Shown here: positions 4,546 to 63,895 of the stretch, in pieces
Layout of the letters: each line of letters opens with the position of its first letter
How positions within the stretch are numbered: position 1 is the first letter of the stretch
Assembly (NCBI GenBank): GCA_934590325.1
Contig: CAKTOW010000003.1
Location: 124,001 to 188,000, forward strand
Length of the DNA: 64,000 bases
DNA from: an uncultured Oscillospiraceae bacterium
GTDB taxonomy: Bacteria; Bacillota; Clostridia; Oscillospirales; Oscillospiraceae
Direction of reading: 5' to 3'
The notes under the pieces: generated by a model
What the model saw: the letters and a program-made list of their open reading frames with translations, nothing else
Told to the model about the DNA's origin: nothing
Databases searched by the model: none
Position numbers and translations under genes: made by a program

Positions 4546-4597
4546 GTTCTCTGAATCGCAGTTTAACGCCCCTTACCGGGCGGAAGGAGAACGATAT

Positions 4598-7500
4598 ATG
4601 GCTGGTTTCAGTGTCAAAAAACCGTTGACCGTCTTTGTGGCGGTGCTGGGCATCATCGTGCTGGGCGTGGTGGCGTATCTGAAGATGACGCCCGACCTGT
4701 TCCCCAACATGGACTTCCCCTACGTCATCATCGTGACCTCCGACCCCGGTGCCAGCCCGGAGTCCGTGGAACAGGCCATTACCAAGCCGGTGGAGCAGTC
4801 CATGGCCACGCTGGATAAGATAAAGACCGTCACCTCCACCAGCCAGGACAGCGTGTCCATGGTCATTCTGGAGTTCGAGGACGGCGCCAATATGGACACC
4901 ATCAGCGTGGACATCCAGCAGAAGATATCCATTCTGCAGGGCGACTGGGACGACACGGTGTCCGCACCCTACGTGCTGAAGATCAACCCCTCCATGCTGC
5001 CGGTGATGGTGGCCGCCGTATCCCGTGAGGACATGGACGTGTACGAGCTCAGCGACTTTGTTACCGACGAGCTCAGCCCCAAGCTGGAGGGCGTGTCCGG
5101 CGTGGCCAGCATCAGCGTCAGCGGCGCCGTCACCCGCGAGGCCCACGTGATACTGGACGCGGAGAAGCTGTCCGCCCTGTCGGAAAAGCTGGCCGCCGCG
5201 GTGAAAAAGGAACTGGCCAAGGCGGAGGGCAAGCTCATCGACGCCCAGGACGAGGTGGAAAAGGGCCAGGCGGAGCTGCAGAAGGCCAAGGAGGCCATTG
5301 CCGCCGGACTGGCGGACACCGCCGGCGACGCGGTGGACGATGTGTACAAGTACATCAAGCAGGCCTACGACAGCCTGCCCGACCTGCCGGAGGGGCCCAT
5401 CACCCCGCCCACACCTGACCCCGACGGCGGCGACGAGCCCACCGTGCCGGACCTGCCGGAGATACCGGACGTGTCCGGACAGCTGGAGGACCTGTACAAG
5501 ACCCTGAACCAGCTGAAAAAGACCCTGGAAACACTGCTGAAGGACATGGAGAGCGGCAAGACCCGCCGTGAGGTGGAGGGTCAGGTCTACGACGCCACGC
5601 TGTCGCTGATCGACGGCATGACCCAGCTGACCGAGGCGGATATGCAGCTGAAGGAGGCCAAGACCCAGATCGAGAGCGGTCTGGAGCAGATCAAGGATGC
5701 CTACAAGTCCGTGGCGGACCAGACGGACGTGGGCGGCATGCTGTCCATCTCCACCGTCAGCCAGCTGCTGACGGCGCAGAACTTTGCCATGCCCGCCGGG
5801 TACATCGAGGATGACAGCGGCGTGCGGTATATGGTGTCCGTGGGCGAGAGCGTGTCCTCCCGGCAGGAGCTGGAGGACATGGTGCTGCTGGACCTGGGCA
5901 TGGAGGGTATCGAGCCGGTGACCCTGGGCGATATCGCCACGGTGGTGGTCACCGACAACGCCGACGAGCTGTACACCAAGGTCAACGGCGACAACGGCAT
6001 CCTTATCACCTTCACCAAGCAGTCCAACTACGCCACGGCGGAGGTGTCCAACAACATCAGCGACCGGTTCGAGCAGCTGGAGGCGCAGTATGAGGGACTG
6101 GACTTCGCGCCGCTGATGGACCAGGGCGACTATATCTACCTCATCGTGGAGACCATCACCTCGTCCCTGCTGTGGGGCGCGCTGTTCTCCGTGGTGGTGC
6201 TGTATCTGTTCCTGCGTGACTGGCGTCCCACGGTCATCACGCTGGTGTCCATACCTGTCAGCGTGATATTCGCCGTGGTGCTCATGTACTTCACCGGCGT
6301 GACCATCAACATGATCTCCCTGTCGGGACTGGCGGTGTCGGTGGGTATGCTGGTGGACAACTCGGTGGTGGTCATCGAGAACATCTACCGCCTCCGTGCC
6401 AAGGGCGCCACCATCATACAGGCGGCGGTGTCCGGCGCCCAGCAGGTGCTGGGAGCGGTGACGGCCTCCACCCTGACCACCGTGTGCGTGTTTGCACCCA
6501 TCGTGTTTGTGGAGGGCCTGACGCGGCAGCTGTTCACCGACCTGGCGCTGACCATTACATACTCTCTGCTGGCCAGCCTGCTGGTGGCACTGACGCTGGT
6601 GCCCGCCATGGCCAGCGGTATGCTGCGCCGCGACCTGGTGCAGAAGCCGGGCCTGCTGGATAAGATATACCCCGCCTACCGCAGGGCCATCGCCTTCGCG
6701 CTGGACCACAAGGCGGGCGTGCTGCTGTTGTCCCTGGTGCTGCTGGTGACCAGCGGCTGGGCGGCGGTGAGCCGCGGCTTTACCTTCATGCCCGACATGG
6801 ATATGAACAACCTGTCCGTCAACATCACCATGCCCGAGGATGTCACCCGCGAGGAGGCCGTGGCGCTGGCCGACACAGTGCTGGAGCGGGTCATGACTGT
6901 GGACAACATTCAGGACGCGGGCTTTATGATGAGCGGCGGGTCGTCCGGCATGAGCTTCGGCGGCTCCACCGGCGGCACCTATGACGTGGAGGGCTACATC
7001 ACCATGCCGGAGGGCACCTTCGGCTCCGTGGCGGGCAAGGAGATCGAGGCGCTGTGCGCCGACCTGCCCTGCGAGGTGACAGCCGGCGGCATCATGAGCG
7101 AGATGATGAGCTATATGACCGGCAGCGGCGTGTCGCTGCAGGTGTTCGGCAGCGACATGGCTGACCTGCAGAGCAGCGCCCGCGCCATCGCCCAGCGGCT
7201 GGAGCAGGTGGAGGGCGTCGGCGAGGTGGACAATGGGCTCAACGAGTCCGCCCCGGCGCTGCAGGTGGTCATCGACCGCAAGGCGGCGGCGGAGCACGGC
7301 ATGACCGTGGCACAGATATACATGAAGATCGCCGCCGCGCTGCAGAGCAGCGCCAGCCTGTCCGATGTGACGCTGGACAACAACGACATGAGCCTGACCG
7401 TGGACGCGGCGGAGGGCACCGCCCTCACCCGCGAGAAGCTGCTGGAGCTGGAGATCACGCCGGACAGCACTATGTCCGCCGCCATGGGCGGCAGCAGCTC

Positions 7501-10077: not shown

Positions 10078-10797
10078 TCACTTCCCGGCGGCCATGACCT
10101 TTCCGGCGGCGTCCACCACCAGGCGGTCGGTCTTGGCGCCGGCGGCGGCCTTGCTGAAGCTCACCGTCCAGGCGCCGGCGGTGACGTCATAGGTGGCGTA
10201 CACCTGATCGTACTCGCCGGTGTACTGGGCCTTGGCGGCGTCGATGGCGGCCTGCTGGCTGACGCTCTTGCGGCCGATCTGGGCGGTGCCCAGAATGGAC
10301 AGCAGCGCATCGCGGTTGGCGTTCCACACCTCGGTGGTCATGGTGTCGGAGGGGGCGGCCACATAGCTGCCCGGCACGTCCTCAAAGGAGATGTCGGCCA
10401 TGACCATGGTGCCCTTTTCCGTGTTCTCCTCCGTGTGCTGCCAGACCTTCATGCCGTTGGCCAGGGTGATCTCCTCACTGGTGACGCCGGTGCCGCAGAT
10501 GCCGTAGCCGCCGGTCCAGCACAGCAGGGTGTAGCTGACGGTGGGATCGTCGGTCTTATAGAACCGGATGCCCTCGGTCTTGTCGCTGCCGGTGTCGGAG
10601 ACCTGCTCCCAGCTCCAGCCCTCCGGCAGGTCCAGCGCCATGTCCACATAGCCGTGGGTGAACTCGGCGGTAGTGGCGGCGGGCTGGGGGTCCGGCGCGG
10701 GGGTGGGGTCCTTCTTATTGTCGTCGTCCTTCTTGCCGCAGGCCACCAGCGTCAGGGCGCAGGCCAGGGCAAGAATAAAGGCCAGAAACTTTTTCAT
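10078..10797 (-). CDS. Lipoprotein, unknown function
   Basis: 239 aa. The ATG at 10797 gives MKKFLAFILALACALTLVAC, a lipoprotein signal peptide with Cys20 as the lipidated residue; AGGAGG is nine bases upstream. After an Asp/Lys/Pro-rich linker (KKDDDNKKDPTPAPDPQP) the mature domain has no motif I can assign. It contains LPEGWSWEQV, reminiscent of PsbP/Mog1-like lipoproteins, but this is weak. It would be processed by the LspA encoded at 1727. It is a monocistronic unit between a terminator and the MATE gene. Confidence 0.85.
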   Translation of the reverse strand: MKKFLAFILALACALTLVACGKKDDDNKKDPTPAPDPQPAATTAEFTHGYVDMALDLPEGWSWEQVSDTGSDKTEGIRFYKTDDPTVSYTLLCWTGGYGICGTGVTSEEITLANGMKVWQHTEENTEKGTMVMADISFEDVPGSYVAAPSDTMTTEVWNANRDALLSILGTAQIGRKSVSQQAAIDAAKAQYTGEYDQVYATYDVTAGAWTVSFSKAAAGAKTDRLVVDAAGKVMAAGK

Positions 10798-56085: not shown

Positions 56086-57420
56086 ATGAACCGGGATTTA
56101 ACGCAAGGCTCTGTCACCAAGTCCATGCTGCTGTTTGCCATCCCTATGATTTTGGGGGATCTATTGCAGCAGTGCTATAACATTGCCGACACGCTGATCG
56201 TCGGGCAATTTCTCGGGCGGGATGCCCTTGCGGCGGTGGGCTCATCTTTTACGCTGATGACCTTTCTGACCTCCATCATCCTTGGCCTGTGCATGGGGAG
56301 CGGCGCACTGTTTTCCATGCGCTTTGGGCAGCGGGATGAGAAGGCTCTTTGCGAGAACCTCTGTGCATCGTTTTTCTTTATCGCGCTCGTCACCGCGCTC
56401 CTGAACATCTTATCGTTTGCCTGTCTGGACGGGCTTCGCACATTTCTCCGGGTTCCCGCCGAGGTCTGGGGCGATATGCGCGAATACCTGTTTGTGATTT
56501 TCATGGGAATTCCCGCGGTTTTTCTGTATAACTACTTCGCCTCCTTTTTGCGGGCGATCGGCAATTCCGTTATCCCGCTGGGCTTTTTGGCTGTTTCCGC
56601 TGTGCTGAATATCGCCCTCGATCTCTGGTTTGTCATCGGGCTAAATAGAGGCGTTGTCGGAGCGGCGGAGGCGACGGTGATCGCCCAGTATGTTTCAGGG
56701 ATCGGCATCGCCGCTTATACGCTTGTGCGCTTCCCTCAGGTGCGCTCTATATGGAATTTCCGCTCCCTGCGGCGCGGACGTATCCAGGAGATCGTCTCCT
56801 TCTCCACGCTGACCTGCGTGCAGCAATCCATCATGAACCTCGGTATCCTTATGGTGCAGGGACTGGTCAACAGCTTCGGCCCTATTGTGATGGCCGCCTT
56901 TGCCGCCGCCGTGAAGATCGACGCCTTTGCCTATATGCCGGTGCAGGACTTCGGTAACGCCTTTTCCACTTTTATCGCCCAGAATTACGGGGCAAAAGAG
57001 AGCGCGCGGATACGCGCGGGGCTGAAAAACGCCGTGTGCATTTCCATGGCCTTCTGCGTGGTCATATCCGCCCTCGTCTTCGTATTTGCAAGACCTCTTA
57101 TGGCGATTTTTGTGGATGTCGGAGAAAGCGAGGTCATTCTGGAGGGCGTGCGGTATCTTCGTATTGAGGGCGCGTTTTACTGCGGCATCGGCTGCCTGTT
57201 CCTGCTCTACGGGCTGTATCGTGCGTTGGGAAAGCCGGGCATGAGCGTGGTGCTTACCGTCATCTCGTTAGGCACCCGTGTCGCGCTGGCCTACCTGCTG
57301 TCCACGATTCCCACCATCGGCGTCACCGGTATCTGGTGGTCTGTCCCGATCGGCTGGGGTCTGGCGGATTTAGTCGGATTGCTTTATTACAAGGTAAAAA
57401 AGCAATCGCTGCTGTTTTGA
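56086..57420 (+). CDS. MATE-family efflux transporter (island copy)
   Basis: 444 aa with twelve membrane segments; MLLFAIPMILGDLLQQCYNI and ADTLIVGQFLGRDALAAVGS at the N-terminus, SFLRAIGNSVIPLGFL, PVQDFGNAFSTFIAQNYGAK in the middle and LYRALGKPGMSV near the end. Same family as the pump at 10939 but a different subgroup. Its DNA is less GC-rich than the core. CGGAGG precedes the ATG. The stop is followed directly by the response-regulator operon operator. Confidence 0.92.
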   Translation: MNRDLTQGSVTKSMLLFAIPMILGDLLQQCYNIADTLIVGQFLGRDALAAVGSSFTLMTFLTSIILGLCMGSGALFSMRFGQRDEKALCENLCASFFFIALVTALLNILSFACLDGLRTFLRVPAEVWGDMREYLFVIFMGIPAVFLYNYFASFLRAIGNSVIPLGFLAVSAVLNIALDLWFVIGLNRGVVGAAEATVIAQYVSGIGIAAYTLVRFPQVRSIWNFRSLRRGRIQEIVSFSTLTCVQQSIMNLGILMVQGLVNSFGPIVMAAFAAAVKIDAFAYMPVQDFGNAFSTFIAQNYGAKESARIRAGLKNAVCISMAFCVVISALVFVFARPLMAIFVDVGESEVILEGVRYLRIEGAFYCGIGCLFLLYGLYRALGKPGMSVVLTVISLGTRVALAYLLSTIPTIGVTGIWWSVPIGWGLADLVGLLYYKVKKQSLLF

Positions 57421-57448
57421 ACCTCCGTTGAGGTTGAATGAGTATACT
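57420..57448 (+). promoter_or_regulatory. Operator-promoter of the two-component operon
   Basis: Palindrome AACCTCCGTTGAGGTT (57420-57435), seven bases, then TATACT (57443-57448). The palindrome replaces a normal -35 box, as at activator-dependent promoters. The same arrangement recurs at 60306-60334. Confidence 0.7.
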
Positions 57449-57476
57449 AAGTTTGCAAAAGGACGGATGAAAGACT

Positions 57477-58151
57477 ATGAGAATACTGGTTGCGGAGGAT
57501 GATTCGTCGCTGCGGAGAGCGCTAATTTCCATTTTGCAAAAGAATCATTATACGGCAGAAGCGGTGGATAATGGCGGCGACGCGCTGGACTATCTGCTCA
57601 GCGGGCTTTATGATGCTGCGATTCTGGACATTATGATGCCGGTGATGGACGGTGTTTCGGTGCTCGTCGAGGTGCGAAAGGCGCACAATGTCACACCTAT
57701 ATTGCTGCTCACCGCCAAAGCGGAAATCGACGACAAAATCATCGGGCTGGATGCCGGAGCCAACGACTATCTGACCAAGCCCTTTGATATGCGGGAGCTG
57801 TTGGCGCGGCTTCGGGTGCTGACGAGGAAAAACGATATCCAGCAGACCAATACGCTTACTTTCGGAAACACCGCGCTGAATACCGAGACATTTGAATTGT
57901 CTGCACCCGGCGGCAGCTATAAGCTTGCCAACAAGGAATATCAGACGATGCTGCTGTTTATGCGCAATCCCAAGGTGGTTATTCCGTCCTCACGGGTATT
58001 GGAAAACATATGGGATCCGGATTCAAAAGCCGAGGACAATACCGTTTGGACATACATTTCTTATCTTCGCCGAAAGCTGGAAGCGATCAAAGCGGATATT
58101 GAGATCCGTACCATGCGGGGCGCAGGCTATACGCTGGAGGTGCGGAAATGA
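57477..58151 (+). CDS. OmpR-family response regulator
   Basis: 224 aa. Receiver domain with acidic pocket (VAEDDSS), phospho-acceptor D51 in AAILDIMMPVMDG, LLTAKAE and Lys in YLTKPFDMRELLARL. The C-terminal winged-helix DNA-binding domain (about 127-222) has YKLANKEYQTMLLFMRNPKV and RTMRGAGYTLEVRK. It overlaps the kinase gene by four bases. It most likely binds the AACCTC palindromes in front of its own operon and of the xGLK/SUMF operon. Confidence 0.95.
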   Translation: MRILVAEDDSSLRRALISILQKNHYTAEAVDNGGDALDYLLSGLYDAAILDIMMPVMDGVSVLVEVRKAHNVTPILLLTAKAEIDDKIIGLDAGANDYLTKPFDMRELLARLRVLTRKNDIQQTNTLTFGNTALNTETFELSAPGGSYKLANKEYQTMLLFMRNPKVVIPSSRVLENIWDPDSKAEDNTVWTYISYLRRKLEAIKADIEIRTMRGAGYTLEVRK

Positions 58152-59323
58152 CAGTAAGTTTGAAACACCGATTGCAGCTACGGTTTGTCCTGCTGTCCCT
58201 TGCCGCGCTGCTCATCTTGCAATCATTGATCGTAGGGTTCAGCCTGTGGCGCAATTACCGGCAGATCACCCTCAAAGCCGATCGGATGATCATGACGATC
58301 ATTTCAGATCCCGATTCCTCCGAGGTGGCGGACGCCCGGTATTTCACAGCAACTTATGATTTAAGCAGCCGAACGCTGTCGTCCGACACGAGCCATACAG
58401 CGCTGATCAGCCGGTCACAAGCTGCCGACTATGCCAAGTCGGTGATCGCCGATAAGACGGACAAGGGATATAAAGATAACTATCGCTATCTGGTGCATCG
58501 GGGGAAGAACGGGATATCGATCGTTTTTCTGTCCCGCACGGTCGCCTTGGAATCTTTCCGCAACAGCGCCGCTTCTCTGCTGATCATTTCCGGCGTCGGC
58601 ATTGCTCTGATGACAGCCGTTTTAGCGGCGGTATCCGGCAAAGTCGTATCTCCGCTTGTGAAAAATCGGCAAAAACAAAAGGAGTTCATTACCTCGGCAA
58701 GTCATGAGCTGAAAACACCGCTTACCGTGATCCATGCCGATGCGCAGCTATTGGAGTCGGAGATCGGCGAAAACGAATGGCTGTCCGATATACTGAAGCA
58801 AACCGAGCAGATGACCGAGATGACCCACCGGCTGGTGTTTTTGGCACGGACGGAGGAACAAAACGAGCGGACGGTCAAAATTGATTTTCCTGTTTCCGAT
58901 ATTGCTGACGAGGTTGCATCGTCTTATCAGGCAGTTGCCCTCAATACCGGCAAGACCTATACGAAAAAAATCGAACCCAATATCAGCTACTGCGGGGATG
59001 AAAAAGCCATTCGGGAGCTGATGACTGCACTGCTGGACAACGCTTTTAAGTACGGTGCGGAAAGTGGAACGGTCACGGTATCGCTCATCGCTGTTGGCCA
59101 CGGCGTCTGTTTTTCGGTGGAAAACACGGCAGATAAACAGCGAATATCGGATATTTCCCACTTTACCGAGCGCTTTTACCGAAGCGATACCTCAGACAAA
59201 GTCAAGGGTTTCGGCATCGGGCTTTCGGTGGCGCAGGCGGTATGCGAAACACACCGTGGCAAGCTGACGGTGGAACTTGTGGGAGAAAACAGAATTAAAA
59301 TTTCGGCTCTGCTGAAAAATTAA
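58148..59323 (+). CDS. Sensor histidine kinase
   Basis: 391 aa. Two membrane helices (about 13-32 and 143-162) flank an extracytoplasmic sensor of roughly 110 residues. There is no obvious HAMP, because the phospho-acceptor H186 in SASHELKTPLTVIHADAQLL follows soon after. The HATPase domain shows LLDNAFKYG (N box), FYRSDTSDKVKGFGIGLSVA (F and G2 boxes). The G1 box is weak (SVENTADKQ). The sensed signal is unknown; the output operons encode exported proteins. Confidence 0.94.
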   Translation: MTVSLKHRLQLRFVLLSLAALLILQSLIVGFSLWRNYRQITLKADRMIMTIISDPDSSEVADARYFTATYDLSSRTLSSDTSHTALISRSQAADYAKSVIADKTDKGYKDNYRYLVHRGKNGISIVFLSRTVALESFRNSAASLLIISGVGIALMTAVLAAVSGKVVSPLVKNRQKQKEFITSASHELKTPLTVIHADAQLLESEIGENEWLSDILKQTEQMTEMTHRLVFLARTEEQNERTVKIDFPVSDIADEVASSYQAVALNTGKTYTKKIEPNISYCGDEKAIRELMTALLDNAFKYGAESGTVTVSLIAVGHGVCFSVENTADKQRISDISHFTERFYRSDTSDKVKGFGIGLSVAQAVCETHRGKLTVELVGENRIKISALLKN

Positions 59324-59354
59324 AGCATTTGGCAGAGCGAAGGGAGCAGATTAT

Positions 59355-60251
59355 ATGAAGCAAAGATTTTACGCATCGATTGCCCTGCTGCTGGTCGCCG
59401 TATTGACGGCTGCCTTGCTCTGCGGATGTCACAGCAAGCCGGAGAATTCTTCCGATGAAACGAGCAGCGTTGGCTCAGTGCCGACAACCGAGTCAGACAG
59501 CAACAGTATGCCAGCCATAACACCGGACGAAAGCAGCGAAGACACCACCCCGAATGGGACAAACGGTTCTGTGGCAGGCAAGGAGCACACACCCGCCTCG
59601 TTTACTGCCTGCTCCATCAACACTTCACAGCTCGGTACCTTTCGGTATTGGCTGTATACACCGTCTGATCCTACGGAGAATATGCCGCTGATCGTATATC
59701 TGCACGGCGGCTCGGGAAAAGGCGATGATCTGAATTTAATTACGGCTGTTGACGGTTTCCCGCAGTATTTGCAGTCGGGTCAGCTTGGCGATGTGCGCGC
59801 CTATGTAGTCATTCCGCAGCTGCCGAGTACGCAAAAGGGCTGGGTCAATGCCGCAGAGTCGATCTCCGAATTGATCGATCATACAGTATCGACCTATAAA
59901 ATCAATCGGAACAACATCTCACTGACGGGACACAGCATGGGCGGCACGGGGACTTGGAATCTTGCCTGCACTTACCCGAGCTTGTTTGCCCGCATAGCCC
60001 CTCTTTCCGGCAGCATCCGCAATACACCCGATATCATCGACAACTTGAAAAACATACCCGTCCGAGCCTTTGTCGGTTCGGCAGATACCATTGTGCCCCC
60101 GGATTCCTCAAAGGAGGTTATCGCAGCGTTGAAAGCGGCGGGCGGCAGTGCCGAGATCACCGTGTTTGACGGTGCAGATCATTTTTCCGTGCCGAGCCTG
60201 ACCTTCCTCGATACCAATATCGATCTTATCGGTTGGCTGATCAGCGGCTGA
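59355..60251 (+). CDS. Lipoprotein alpha/beta hydrolase (esterase-like)
   Basis: 298 aa. The signal peptide ends in the lipobox LCGC with Cys25 lipidated. A long Ser/Thr/Glu-rich linker (about 28-80) follows, then the hydrolase: PLIVYLHGGSGKG oxyanion region, nucleophile S194 in LTGHSMGGTGTWNLA, Asp in VGSADTIVPPDSS and His in DGADHFSVPS. This resembles surface feruloyl/PHB-depolymerase-like (LpqC) esterases. It is third in the two-component operon (31 bases after the kinase) and ends with a terminator. Confidence 0.9.
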   Translation: MKQRFYASIALLLVAVLTAALLCGCHSKPENSSDETSSVGSVPTTESDSNSMPAITPDESSEDTTPNGTNGSVAGKEHTPASFTACSINTSQLGTFRYWLYTPSDPTENMPLIVYLHGGSGKGDDLNLITAVDGFPQYLQSGQLGDVRAYVVIPQLPSTQKGWVNAAESISELIDHTVSTYKINRNNISLTGHSMGGTGTWNLACTYPSLFARIAPLSGSIRNTPDIIDNLKNIPVRAFVGSADTIVPPDSSKEVIAALKAAGGSAEITVFDGADHFSVPSLTFLDTNIDLIGWLISG

Positions 60252-60260
60252 GCATGTCAT

Positions 60261-60304
60261 AAAGCAGGTATGGGAGAAAATCCTTCTCCTATACCTGCTT
60301 TTTT
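60261..60304 (+). terminator. Terminator of the two-component operon
   Basis: AAAGCAGGTATgGGAGAA / TTCTCCtATACCTGCTTTTTT, a long stem with T tract. Confidence 0.9.
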
Positions 60305-60305
60305 G

Positions 60306-60334
60306 AACCTCAATTGAGGTCAAGCACCTACGAT
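60306..60334 (+). promoter_or_regulatory. Operator-promoter of the xGLK/SUMF operon
   Basis: Palindrome AACCTCAATTGAGGTC (60306-60321), seven bases, TACGAT (60329-60334). Same palindrome and spacing as at 57420. The 5' UTR is about 55 nt. Confidence 0.7.
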
Positions 60335-60395
60335 AGATGTGTAAAAGAGAGATGGAATCAATCTTTTACCAATCTATTTGAAAGAGGTCTATATC

Positions 60396-60716
60396 ATGAA
60401 CTGCAAGAAAACGATTGTCGCTGCGTGTGCCGCTCTCTGTATCGGAACGGCACTGTCCGTTCCTGCATTTGCCGAGGAAGCAAAGCCGATCGAAAAAGAG
60501 CCGGTGGCGCAAAGCGTGGCTGTCCTTAGCGACGGACTGAAAGAAGGCTTAAAGTCCGGACTGAAAAACGGCTTGAAATCCGATGTAAAAGACGGACTGA
60601 AAAACGGCTTAAAATCAGGCACAAAGAACGGCCTGAAGGATGGATTGAAGAACGGCACAAAAGACGGGCTGAAGAATGGACTGAAAGACGGATTGAAGAA
60701 CGGTGACAAACGATGA
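60396..60716 (+). CDS. Secreted xGLK-tetrad repeat protein
   Basis: 106 aa from ATG 60396 (MNCKKTIVAACAALCIGTAL), AAAGAGG upstream. The signal peptide is probably cleaved after AFA26. A short acidic spacer (EEAKPIEKEPVAQSVAVLS) leads to residues 46-105, which are exactly fifteen tetrads of the form x-G-L-K (x = D, N, S or E; a few GTK, DVK and GDK variants), then a final Arg. The result is a highly basic, glycine-rich extracellular repeat. No family is known to me. Its stop overlaps an ATG, and the SUMF gene follows 14 bases later. Confidence 0.8.
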   Translation: MNCKKTIVAACAALCIGTALSVPAFAEEAKPIEKEPVAQSVAVLSDGLKEGLKSGLKNGLKSDVKDGLKNGLKSGTKNGLKDGLKNGTKDGLKNGLKDGLKNGDKR

Positions 60717-60730
60717 AAGGAGCGGACACA

Positions 60731-62338
60731 ATGCGTTTGACAAAGAGAATTTGCAGCATTGCCCTTGCTTCTGTTCTGGTGCTTTCGCTGATTCCGGCGA
60801 CGGCAATGGCGGCAGAAACAGATGACAGCATGAATATGTTTGAAAACAGTGACTTCATCGAGAAGGAGCAGCCGGAGCTGACCGAGGAGACAAAACAGCT
60901 TATTTCTCTCTATCAGAGAGATCCGTCGATGGAGAATTATCTGAATCTGCGGGACATCGTCATCGAAAACTATGATGCCGTGCTCGTCCGGAAGGAGGCA
61001 AAATTAGCTTCTCTGAAAGAGGAGACCGCAGGCAAGCCCGGCGGTGCCGATAAGGTTGCCGAGATGGAGGATATTGTGCAGGAAATGTACAAAACCTACT
61101 GGAACCGCATCAACAGCAGTATGCTGCGCTTTACCGACAGCCGCCTGCTGAAATGGAAGGTGTCCGATGCGGCGAAATATGATTACATTCCTGTGATGGG
61201 TGCAGGAACTACGGTGTATGTCAAGCGCACGCAGGTGACCAATGCCGAATACGCCGCCTTTTTGGCGGATACCGGAAAAGCGGCACCGCAAAATTGGATG
61301 GACGGCAATTATCCTGCCGGAGAGGAAAACTATCCGGTGAATTTTGTCAGTTATGAGGATGCCGCAGCGTACTGCGCGTGGCTTACCGAAAAGGACGGCA
61401 CCGATACTTACCGTTTGCCCAACGAAAGCGAGTGGGAGCTGGCAGCCGGTCATATGCCCAAGGATGCCGATTTCAACTGCGGTGTGAATGATGGCAGAAC
61501 GCCCGTGGATCAATATGCCGATGTTACCCGCGGTGCTCACGGCGCAATAGATTTCTGGGGCAATGTATGGGAGTGGACTTCCACCGTACGCAGCTCTGAT
61601 AATGGTATAGACACACTTGGCGTCAAGGGCGGCGCCTGGAATTCCGCACGAACCGATTGCCGCACCGAATACCGCAAAGAAGGCCGCACAGAAAACATCG
61701 GCTATGAAGATGTGGGCTTTCGTGTGCTGAAGATCCTGAATGGTGAAGAGCCGGAGCAGAAGGTGGAGCTTGCCACGCTGGAAGCTCCGACGGTCTCCGC
61801 CGTTCTTCTTGCAGACAATACCGTGCAGCTCTCGTGGCAGCCGGTAGCGGATGCTGTGGAGTATCAGATTTTCGATTATTGTGAAGAGACCGGACTTGTG
61901 CGGATGTTAAGCAGAACGGCACATACCTCCTTCACACTTACCTCTCCCGCCGCCGGTTCCTATCGTTATATTGTGCAGCCGATCTCTTATACAGCGATCT
62001 GTGACAATGTTTCTGCGGAATACAGTGTGGAGGTCTTAAAAGCCGAAACCCCGGCGGAAACACTGATGGCGACCGCTGCGTATAACGCCGAGAACAACAG
62101 CCTGACGCTTTCTTGGAATGCCGGTGACACGGCCGGTACATACTATGTGTATAAATATCACATGGACACGAACCAACTCTCCAAGGCAAAGATCGTGACT
62201 GGTAAGACGGAATGTACACTCCGTAAAATAGAGAGCGGCAAGGAATATGCTTTCATTGTCAGCACAAAAGAGCTTTCCAACAAGTACGGGTATACAGGTG
62301 CACCATCTTTGATTATTACGATCCCATACGCGGAATAA
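60731..62338 (+). CDS. Secreted SUMF1/FGE-fold protein with two fibronectin III domains
   Basis: 535 aa from ATG 60731 (MRLTKRICSIALASVLVLSL), AAAGGAG eight bases upstream. A signal peptide ends near AMAA28, followed by a helical region (about 35-125). The SUMF1/formylglycine-enzyme fold spans about 140-335: VTNAEYAAFLAD, NFVSYEDAAAYCAWLTEKDG, YRLPNESEWELAA, GNVWEWTS, GGAWNSARTDCRTEYR, GYEDVGFRVLK. By eye, C310 aligns with the second catalytic Cys of true FGE while the first is replaced by Ser. Two FnIII-like domains (about 345-435 and 440-535) close the protein. Confidence 0.88.
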   Translation: MRLTKRICSIALASVLVLSLIPATAMAAETDDSMNMFENSDFIEKEQPELTEETKQLISLYQRDPSMENYLNLRDIVIENYDAVLVRKEAKLASLKEETAGKPGGADKVAEMEDIVQEMYKTYWNRINSSMLRFTDSRLLKWKVSDAAKYDYIPVMGAGTTVYVKRTQVTNAEYAAFLADTGKAAPQNWMDGNYPAGEENYPVNFVSYEDAAAYCAWLTEKDGTDTYRLPNESEWELAAGHMPKDADFNCGVNDGRTPVDQYADVTRGAHGAIDFWGNVWEWTSTVRSSDNGIDTLGVKGGAWNSARTDCRTEYRKEGRTENIGYEDVGFRVLKILNGEEPEQKVELATLEAPTVSAVLLADNTVQLSWQPVADAVEYQIFDYCEETGLVRMLSRTAHTSFTLTSPAAGSYRYIVQPISYTAICDNVSAEYSVEVLKAETPAETLMATAAYNAENNSLTLSWNAGDTAGTYYVYKYHMDTNQLSKAKIVTGKTECTLRKIESGKEYAFIVSTKELSNKYGYTGAPSLIITIPYAE

Positions 62339-62349
62339 CACCCCCCTAT

Positions 62350-62414
62350 CCCCCAAAAGCAAGAGAAAGACACTGGATACCGGTGTCTTTCTCTTGCTTT
62401 GAGGGGCTTTTTTA
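62350..62414 (+). terminator. Terminator of the xGLK/SUMF operon
   Basis: Perfect 18-bp stem AAAGCAAGAGAAAGACAC and its complement (62356-62400), nested in an outer CCCCC / GGGG pair and followed by CTTTTTTAT. A possible extended -10 (TGCTATACT, 62502-62510) for the next operon lies about 90 bases downstream. Confidence 0.9.
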
Positions 62415-62554
62415 TCACTCATACTGCCCGTTGTGGTCACGCGGCGGAGGCTCATCGAGGATATGCTTAACAAAATCTGCACGACCGAAACGTGAAAACC
62501 GTGCTATACTATACGCGCAATTGGGAATACAGTCGATTTTAAGAGGTGAGTCCC

Positions 62555-63895
62555 GTGACAGAAACCGGTTTCCATTTGAAACGCCGTCTGACGTCCTTCC
62601 AGATCATGATCCTCGGCTTTGCGGGTGTCATCCTTCTGGGTGCGCTGGTGCTGATGCTGCCCATCGCCGCCGCAAGCCGCACATGGACGCCGTTTCACGA
62701 GGCGCTGTTCACCTCTACCTCTGCGGTCTGCGTGACGGGGCTGGTGGTGCAGGACACCGGCAGCTACTGGTCCGGCTTCGGTCAGACCGTGATCCTGCTG
62801 CTGATCCAGATCGGCGGCTTAGGCGTCATCACCGCCGCCGTAACGTTTCTGATGCTCTCCGGTAAGAATATCTCACTGAAGGAGCGCAGCGCCATGCAGG
62901 ACGCCATTTCCGCTCCGGCGGTGGGCGGCATCGTGCGCCTGACACGTTTTGTCCTGAAGGGCACATTCCTTGTGGAGCTGATCGGCTCGCTGGCGCTGCT
63001 GCCGGTATTCTGCCGGGACTACGGACTGCGGGGCGTGTGGATGGCGGTGTTTCACTCCGTTTCCGCCTTCTGCAACGCGGGCTTTGACATTCTGGGGCGG
63101 GCAAATGCGCTCTACACTTCCCTGACGGCGTACATGGCCGACCCGCTGGTCAACATCGTCATTATGCTGCTGATCATCGTGGGCGGCATCGGCTTTCTGA
63201 CGTGGGATGACGTCTGCACCCACCGGCTGCACCTGCGACGATACCGGATGCAAAGCAAGGCCATTCTGGGCGCGACGGCGCTTTTGATCGTGCTTCCGAC
63301 GATCCTGTTCTTCCTGACGGATTTTGCCGCCCTGCCCACAGGCGAGAGGGTGCTGGCGTCTCTCTTTCAGGCGGTCACGCCGCGAACAGCCGGCTACAAC
63401 ACCGCGGATCTGACGAAGATGGGCGATACCTCGCAAGCGGTCACGATTTTGCTGATGCTTACCGGCGGCGCACCCGGCTCCACTGCGGGCGGCATGAAGG
63501 TCACGACGCTGGCTGTGCTGGCCGCCAATGCCGCCGCCGTATTTCACCGCCGGGAGGAGCCGCAGCTTTTCGGGCGCCGGCTGGAGGATTCCGCCGTCAA
63601 AAACGCCGCCGCCATCCTGCTGCTGTATCTGGGACTGACCTTCGCGGGTGCAGCGGTCATCAGCGCTGCGGAGGGCCTGCCGCTGGGCGTCTGCCTCTAT
63701 GAAACGGCTTCCGCTGCCGGAACGGTAGGGCTGACACTGGGGCTGACGCCGCAGTTGGGTACGCTGTCGCAGGGCATTCTCATTCTGCTGATGTTCTTCG
63801 GGCGCGTCGGGGGACTTACCCTGATCTACGCCGCATTCTCCGGACATGATCTCACCTGTACCCGGTGTCCAAAAGAAAAAATCACCGTAGGCTGA
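62555..63895 (+). CDS. trkH: TrkH/KtrB-family potassium transporter subunit
   Basis: 446 aa from GTG 62555 (VTETGFHLKRRLTSFQIMIL), with AAGAGG upstream; another GTG nine bases earlier overlaps that site. Four pore repeats with the filter-like glycines appear: SAVCVTGLVVQDTG, SAFCNAGFDILGR, TPRTAGYNTADLT and ASAAGTVGLTLGL. It is the membrane channel part of a Trk/Ktr K+ uptake system. The regulatory TrkA/KtrA gene follows 12 bases later. GC content is back to the core level here. Confidence 0.94.
   Translation: MTETGFHLKRRLTSFQIMILGFAGVILLGALVLMLPIAAASRTWTPFHEALFTSTSAVCVTGLVVQDTGSYWSGFGQTVILLLIQIGGLGVITAAVTFLMLSGKNISLKERSAMQDAISAPAVGGIVRLTRFVLKGTFLVELIGSLALLPVFCRDYGLRGVWMAVFHSVSAFCNAGFDILGRANALYTSLTAYMADPLVNIVIMLLIIVGGIGFLTWDDVCTHRLHLRRYRMQSKAILGATALLIVLPTILFFLTDFAALPTGERVLASLFQAVTPRTAGYNTADLTKMGDTSQAVTILLMLTGGAPGSTAGGMKVTTLAVLAANAAAVFHRREEPQLFGRRLEDSAVKNAAAILLLYLGLTFAGAAVISAAEGLPLGVCLYETASAAGTVGLTLGLTPQLGTLSQGILILLMFFGRVGGLTLIYAAFSGHDLTCTRCPKEKITVG

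Follow-up and report, generated by a model that had tools for sequence, protein, structure and literature searches.

Proteins of the SUMF1/FGE fold (PF03781), which include human SUMF2, ToxD, EgtB-IV and PorK/GldK, have an FGE-sulfatase domain in common. EgtB and OvoA sulfoxide synthases employ a three-histidine iron site that uses an N-terminal helical domain. In FGE itself, mutation of Ser333, Cys336, His337, Tyr340 and Cys341 (human numbering) alters activity, and a C336S mutant traps the substrate cysteine on Cys341 (excerpt of PMC4505483). The variable proteins of DGRs, such as TaqVP, have an FGE-type fold without the FGE catalytic residues, and an excerpt of PMC6328139 argues that they bind ligands. 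A different set of proteins carries GX3 repeats, and the GX3 helices of one of them, FliH, are argued to pair (excerpt of PMC2674601).

The 64-kb stretch of DNA analysed here (the window) encodes an FGE-fold protein, SUMF, together with a tetrad-repeat protein, REP, an esterase-like hydrolase, EST, and a two-component system (TCS). SUMF may resemble C-type-lectin-fold binders of the FGE subtype (TaqVP; excerpt of PMC6328139) in having an FGE-type fold, predicted from its family match, without the FGE catalytic residues; in contrast to these variable proteins its domain is highly conserved. Compared with SUMF1/FGE-fold proteins at large, SUMF is likely secreted and is set apart by a particular helical N domain and by FnIII domains. 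Most of the FGE active-site residues are missing from it, as is an EgtB-like histidine, and it is paired with an esterase and a TCS. REP shares with FliH/YscL and Yae1-Lto1 proteins a glycine at every fourth residue and a variable repeat number (excerpts of PMC2674601 and PMC4523923), yet differs from them in its signal peptide (by eye), its [ND]-G-L-K composition and its nature as a short stand-alone protein. We found no description of a TCS-EST-SUMF-REP module in open PMC papers, and four GLK repeat strings had no occurrence there.

Five plus-strand genes make up the locus (57477-62338). An OmpR-family response regulator (57477..58151; Response_reg and Trans_reg_C by Pfam) is followed, with a 4-base overlap at its end, by a sensor histidine kinase (58148..59323; HisKA and HATPase_c by Pfam) and then by EST (59355..60251), an alpha/beta-hydrolase whose N terminus looks, by eye, like that of a lipoprotein. 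A putative triad of Ser194, Asp244 and His276 can be read from the EST sequence, and the protein would have esterase catalysis. REP (60396..60716, 106 residues) starts with what by eye is a signal peptide and has 15 repeats of four residues, while SUMF (60713..62338) comprises a signal peptide, also by eye, a helical N domain, an FGE-fold domain and two FnIII-like domains. The first ATG of SUMF at 60713 overlaps the REP stop codon (ATGA); a start at 60731 is common to most relatives in the alignment. Terminator-like hairpins on the same strand lie between EST and REP (60261..60301, with a T run; -28.6 kcal/mol, z -8.05) and 3' of SUMF (62356..62400; -39.5 kcal/mol, z -9.41). Because these strong hairpins, both absent from the output of a consensus terminator scan, bound the pair on either side, REP and SUMF look like a separate two-gene transcript. 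A MATE exporter gene (56086-57420) stands directly upstream of the response regulator and a TrkH gene downstream of SUMF; Pfam finds no sulfatase among the seven genes at 56086-63895.

OmpR/PhoB-family sites are direct repeats at 11 bp. In the window, one candidate operator/promoter precedes the response regulator (57417..57448, plus strand; TTGAACCTCCGTTGAGGT, N8, TATACT), contains an 11-bp TTGA direct repeat and overlaps the end of the MATE gene; the second precedes REP (60303..60334, plus strand; TTGAACCTCAATTGAGGT, N8, TACGAT). The pattern TTGAACCTCNNTTGAGGT-N8-TANNNT has these two exact copies in 64 kb, with equal spacing to the -10-like hexamer, and occurs in 0 of 100 shuffles. A looser TTGA-N7-TTGA-N11-TANNNT is found at the same two places alone when both strands of the window are scanned, and when the two upstream regions are compared in 32-base stretches, the best pair agrees at 26 positions, while 500 shuffles never exceed 23. 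With 3 mismatches allowed, the bare palindrome ACCTCAATTGAGGT is by itself not significant, its 3 sites being reached by 17 of 100 shuffles, and neither window promoter is in the output of a simple consensus sigma-70 scan. Among 12 genomes that carry a SUMF relative, the window-type operator gave one 3-mismatch match (G012) versus 6 for a backward control. None of these is credible, so the window-side operator rests on its two sites. We consider the predicted operator shared by the response regulator and REP to be real.

A second instance comes from Enterocloster alcoholdehydrogenati (locus L007), the sole REP-bearing locus among the 12, where REP lies 2.6 kb downstream of SUMF. Its response regulator and kinase are about 28% identical to the window TCS, and its operator is unlike that of the window in sequence. 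This operator stands between the response regulator and EST (5919-5948) and again upstream of REP (10723-10752), 80 bases before the REP ATG; the two copies are identical at 33 of 40 positions, and none of 500 shuffled pairs exceeds 25. When as many as 3 mismatches are tolerated, the 3.8-Mb genome (G007) holds exactly these 2 sites, and four further genomes with the same TCS type hold 1 site each. The five genomes thus have six extended-motif sites, all in module loci, versus 0 for the backward control. TANNNT follows exactly 21 bases after the operator at five of the six sites (the exception is L010). We note that the patterns of the window and of the L007 type were both derived from the sites themselves; for the L007-type motif the match of its own sites holds by construction, and the informative points are that there are no others and that the second copy stands before REP. 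Both response regulators belong to the OmpR family, and as in OmpR/PhoB-family regulators the half-sites (TTGAnnn in the window and TGCCGCA in the L007 type, known here from these loci alone) repeat at 11 bp. Such tandem half-sites, spaced by about 11 bp and preceding the promoters, make the sites of the window and of the L006-L010 type candidate OmpR-type operators. REP therefore looks dedicated, at the level of sequence, to an esterase-SUMF regulon in two lineages with non-homologous operators.

An earlier note on this DNA had described SUMF as an FGE-fold protein with two FnIII domains, under an operator that REP-SUMF shares with the neighbouring TCS. The operator is borne out by its two exact copies, and so is the fold, since SUMF matches Pfam FGE-sulfatase (PF03781) at E 2.3e-23, above the gathering score. 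The FnIII count is partly upheld: the structure model has two FnIII-like sandwiches (with most of the FGE domain at pLDDT <50), while one fn3 domain exceeds the Pfam cut-off. By profile, SUMF also matches ToxD (E 1e-16), EgtB-IV (5e-12) and SUMF2 (3e-9). Relatives at E up to 1e-3 number at least 1574, distant ones included, and the named close ones include those of Oscillospiraceae MAGs and of other clostridia, which makes it likely that the window is clostridial. Over the 120 relatives listed, mean identity is 82% in the N domain and 79% in the FGE domain, compared with 42% in the signal peptide; for the last FnIII domain the mean is 34%, and only 93 of the 120 cover over half of it. By precomputed Pfam assignments, 29 of these 120 carry SLH (21), Cu-amine-oxidase-N (4) or dockerin (4; PF00404, which we take to be dockerin) domains, five have an alpha/beta-hydrolase domain and one a metallo-beta-lactamase-fold domain, in a tally that counts four proteins twice. 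Given these SLH, dockerin and copper-amine-oxidase-N domains among relatives, and the fusion of others to EST, SUMF is placed at the cell surface with EST, as its probable ligand-binding FGE-fold partner outside formylglycine chemistry.

Comparison of the active site, by a manual alignment anchored on GGxW, is consistent with this placement outside formylglycine chemistry. At the positions of Ser333, Cys336, His337, Tyr340 and Cys341, the window SUMF has Ala308, Ser311, Ala312, Asp315 and Cys316, and thus keeps one of the five residues, Cys316 (= Cys341), which is invariant in 121 of 121 alignment rows. Position 308 is Ser in 77 rows and Ala in 44, so that many relatives keep two of the five. 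In the same 121 rows, position 311 is nearly always Ser (120, with 1 Thr) and position 315 nearly always Asp (119, with 2 Glu); position 312 is mostly Ala, Glu or Asp. The EgtB-type helical-domain site is missing from the window SUMF as well, because no His occurs upstream of residue 247, which leaves the helical domain without one; across the alignment, a His appears between 41 and 155 in 15 of 121 rows, at no conserved position. The score against NCBIfam EgtB is 48 bits, with a cut-off of 360.

The neighbourhoods of SUMF relatives place EST at the heart of the locus. A genome scan yielded 14 SUMF loci, of which we kept 12 after dropping a contig-end fragment (L013) and a protein of 27% identity (L014); L001, cut 62 bases upstream of SUMF, is counted among the 12. 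EST adjoins SUMF in six loci (L003, L005, L006, L007, L008 and L011, that of L003 being divergent at 32% identity) and is fused to it in three (L004, L009 and L010), hence in 9 of 12. It was not found in L002 and L012; L002 has a different esterase-family gene and a metallo-beta-lactamase-fold gene. A TCS of one of three types stands beside the module in 8 of 12 loci, one of them a remnant. L006-L010 have one OmpR type, that of L007, whereas L011 has the window type (response regulator 80% over 46 residues, kinase 61%) and L005 a window-type remnant with a 39-residue kinase piece. In L004 a LytTR response regulator and GHKL kinase (4668-6884, minus strand) are divergent from the adjoining fused SUMF-EST gene, and in L008 an IS110-type transposase gene (4558-5835, minus strand) lies between TCS and EST, parting the operator from EST. 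In L011 (1327-3765) and L012 (1684-3326), EST and/or SUMF appear broken into frames, by decay or by assembly error in these MAGs. The conserved core of the module, which would be inducible and extracellular, is thus EST and SUMF.

SUMF itself is sparsely distributed: at E up to 1e-60 it was found in the centre genome only in samples of 295, 250, 150 and 17 genomes. A mobile element was considered and set aside, as we found no viral relatives of SUMF or REP and no plasmid match for SUMF at >60% identity or 80% coverage.

The position of REP is different. It is next to SUMF in 0 of the 12 relative loci and was not found in 11 of the 12 SUMF-bearing genomes, most of them draft MAGs, and consequently appears inessential to the module. 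The note's pairing of REP with SUMF therefore survives in altered form: the functional tie to the locus recurs in a second lineage and shared regulation holds, but strict adjacency is rare, and the core partner is the TCS/EST/SUMF regulon and not SUMF alone. REP is best regarded as a probable accessory: two lineages differ in their TCS, and in each of them REP bears the operator found at the module there. The EST-SUMF gap, by called starts, measures 18 bases in L005, 21 in L007 and 9 in L008 with no REP inside, for which reason REP, hairpin and operator look inserted between EST and SUMF in the window; in L007, REP seems to be an addition beyond SUMF, following an LtaS-like gene. We read this as repeated recruitment of REP to the module, the alternative being its loss from an ancestral one. 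The single contig given for a SUMF relative (P0006) and that given for a REP relative (P0160) both measure 8823 bases, which hints at a linkage but may be coincidence.

As for REP itself, the note's "exactly fifteen xGLK tetrads" is right in number, while 11 are strictly xGLK and the remainder read SDVK, SGTK, NGTK and NGDK. Lys ends all 15 tetrads and Gly is present in 14. The mature protein is an acidic linker followed by the repeats, which are net positive (+7). The Lys codons mix AAA and AAG with the amino acid unchanged (pN 0.00), and Gly codons show pS 0.70 versus pN 0.08; because the copies differ in codons while Gly and Lys stay, we conclude from the codon pattern that selection is acting on the REP protein. 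REP is accordingly not the frameshifted low-complexity relic that the note allowed for; by the signal peptide seen by eye it is probably a small exported protein, as the note proposed. The note's further suggestion of a substrate is not supported in the formylglycine sense, with no Cys in the window repeats (2 of the 59 closest REPs have one in or after the repeats) and only the equivalent of Cys341 kept in SUMF; a scaffold or ligand role is possible.

Searches gave 131 relatives from the window REP (120 listed) and 77 from the Enterocloster REP, some of which may match through repeat composition alone. Among the 45 closest, 42 have lengths of 78, 82, 86, 90, 94, 98 or 106 residues, in steps of four, and the remaining 3 have 95, 96 and 113. 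Over 1371 tetrads in the 120 listed relatives, position 1 is Asn/Asp in 66%, position 3 Leu in 60% and position 4 Lys in 73%, Gly at position 2 being fixed by how the runs were chosen. The structure model, of low confidence (pLDDT 58, pTM 0.29), shows the part beyond the signal peptide as two long helices. The window REP scores 21.9 bits (E 1e-4) against Yae1_N and the L007 REP 27.8 bits, the cut-off being 27.5, and the window REP scores 34 bits (E 1e-8; cut-off 192) against a FliH model; periodic Gly composition alone may score so. Three genome samples (250, 295 and 391 genomes) gave REP-like profile matches, and those inspected were other proteins, with the exception of that in G007, the sole inspected short tetrad protein with a signal peptide; in one sample, 5 of 17 places were left out of the locus reading. 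We therefore rejected REP as a common genomic repeat, the other sampled matches being either GX3 tails that belong to larger proteins or frames rich in Gly and Ser. A 204-residue open frame elsewhere (L073, G433:C3, about 1150375-1150683), with more than 20 D-G-A-V-type tetrads and a C-terminal membrane helix by eye, is by its make-up a different tetrad repeat, unlike REP.

We tentatively favour, at somewhat less than even confidence, a sensor-switched extracellular module composed of an exported esterase, an FGE-fold binder and a repeat scaffold. The TCS would turn on two operons from two copies of one operator, the first being its own and including the exported EST, the second REP and SUMF. 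SUMF would bind a ligand as the partner of EST at the cell surface. REP, in the weakest part of the proposal, may be a helical GX3 multimer, multivalent and positively charged, that serves the module as a scaffold or attaches it to the surface where SUMF has no anchor domain of its own. This idea of anchor replacement is weakened, since anchorless SUMF proteins occur without REP in L001, L003, L005 and L008.

A rather unlikely, though serious, alternative is an envelope-stress or antimicrobial response in which EST and metallo-beta-lactamase-fold partners degrade an ester or lactone, SUMF binds the compound and REP shields anionic surface polymers. The TCS adjoining the module, the MATE exporter directly upstream and the positive charge of the REP repeats all fit such a role. 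So does a membrane protein of the Sulfatase family, LtaS-like, whose gene separates SUMF from REP in L007 (8351-10669) and which by eye has Thr at the expected nucleophile position. The same holds for metallo-beta-lactamase-fold domains that adjoin EST or SUMF or form one protein with them, in L006 (2959-4836, minus strand), L002 (8866-9357) and P0116. However, we found no relative of the window MATE in the 12 loci and none of the LtaS-like gene in the 11 loci other than L007, and dockerin-bearing SUMF relatives are a better fit to polymer use. We note as a separate observation that the metallo-beta-lactamase-fold proteins of L006, L002 and P0116, or their neighbours, also carry SLH or Cu-amine-oxidase-N domains; such a protein is a possible second hydrolase of the module.

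We give slightly less credence still to REP being an unrelated low-complexity passenger, placed between EST and SUMF by chance, with its operator a by-product of promoter duplication. The absence of REP from most relatives, as far as found, and the short REP-free EST-SUMF gaps are what this would predict. Against it, the L007 REP again has a local operator, one of two sites in its genome and with the same -10 spacing, and the codon pattern speaks for protein-level constraint.

More speculatively, and with little expectation of being right in full, gut clostridia may repeatedly recruit exported [ND]-G-L-K REPs to sensor-controlled esterase-SUMF systems, forming a new extracellular capture-and-hydrolyse apparatus with REP as an inducible helical matrix. 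SUMF would then be a natural counterpart of the FGE C336S trap, holding ligands on its Cys316 thiol, a proposal made because that mutant traps the substrate cysteine on Cys341 (excerpt of PMC4505483).

Extracellular modification by SUMF of Lys, Asn or Asp in REP as its peptide substrate is very improbable, for although the genes are adjacent with a stop-start overlap, both products have signal peptides by eye, the FGE domain is strongly conserved and the Ser333 equivalent is Ser in 77 of 121 rows, the window SUMF retains one of the five named FGE residues and no EgtB-type helical-domain histidine site, among the 59 closest REPs just 2 have a Cys in or after the repeats, and no REP was found in 11 of the 12 genomes with SUMF.

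The sensor-switched module we favour places a testable regulon around a strongly conserved and apparently uncharacterised FGE-fold group of at least 1574 proteins, distant ones included, and within it an odd tetrad-repeat protein carries the module operator in two lineages whose operators are non-homologous. Should REP polymerise, the result would be a GX3 fibre or scaffold that is exported. FGE-fold proteins that have lost formylglycine chemistry would, in turn, gain a function from knowledge of the inducing signal and of the substrate of the esterase.
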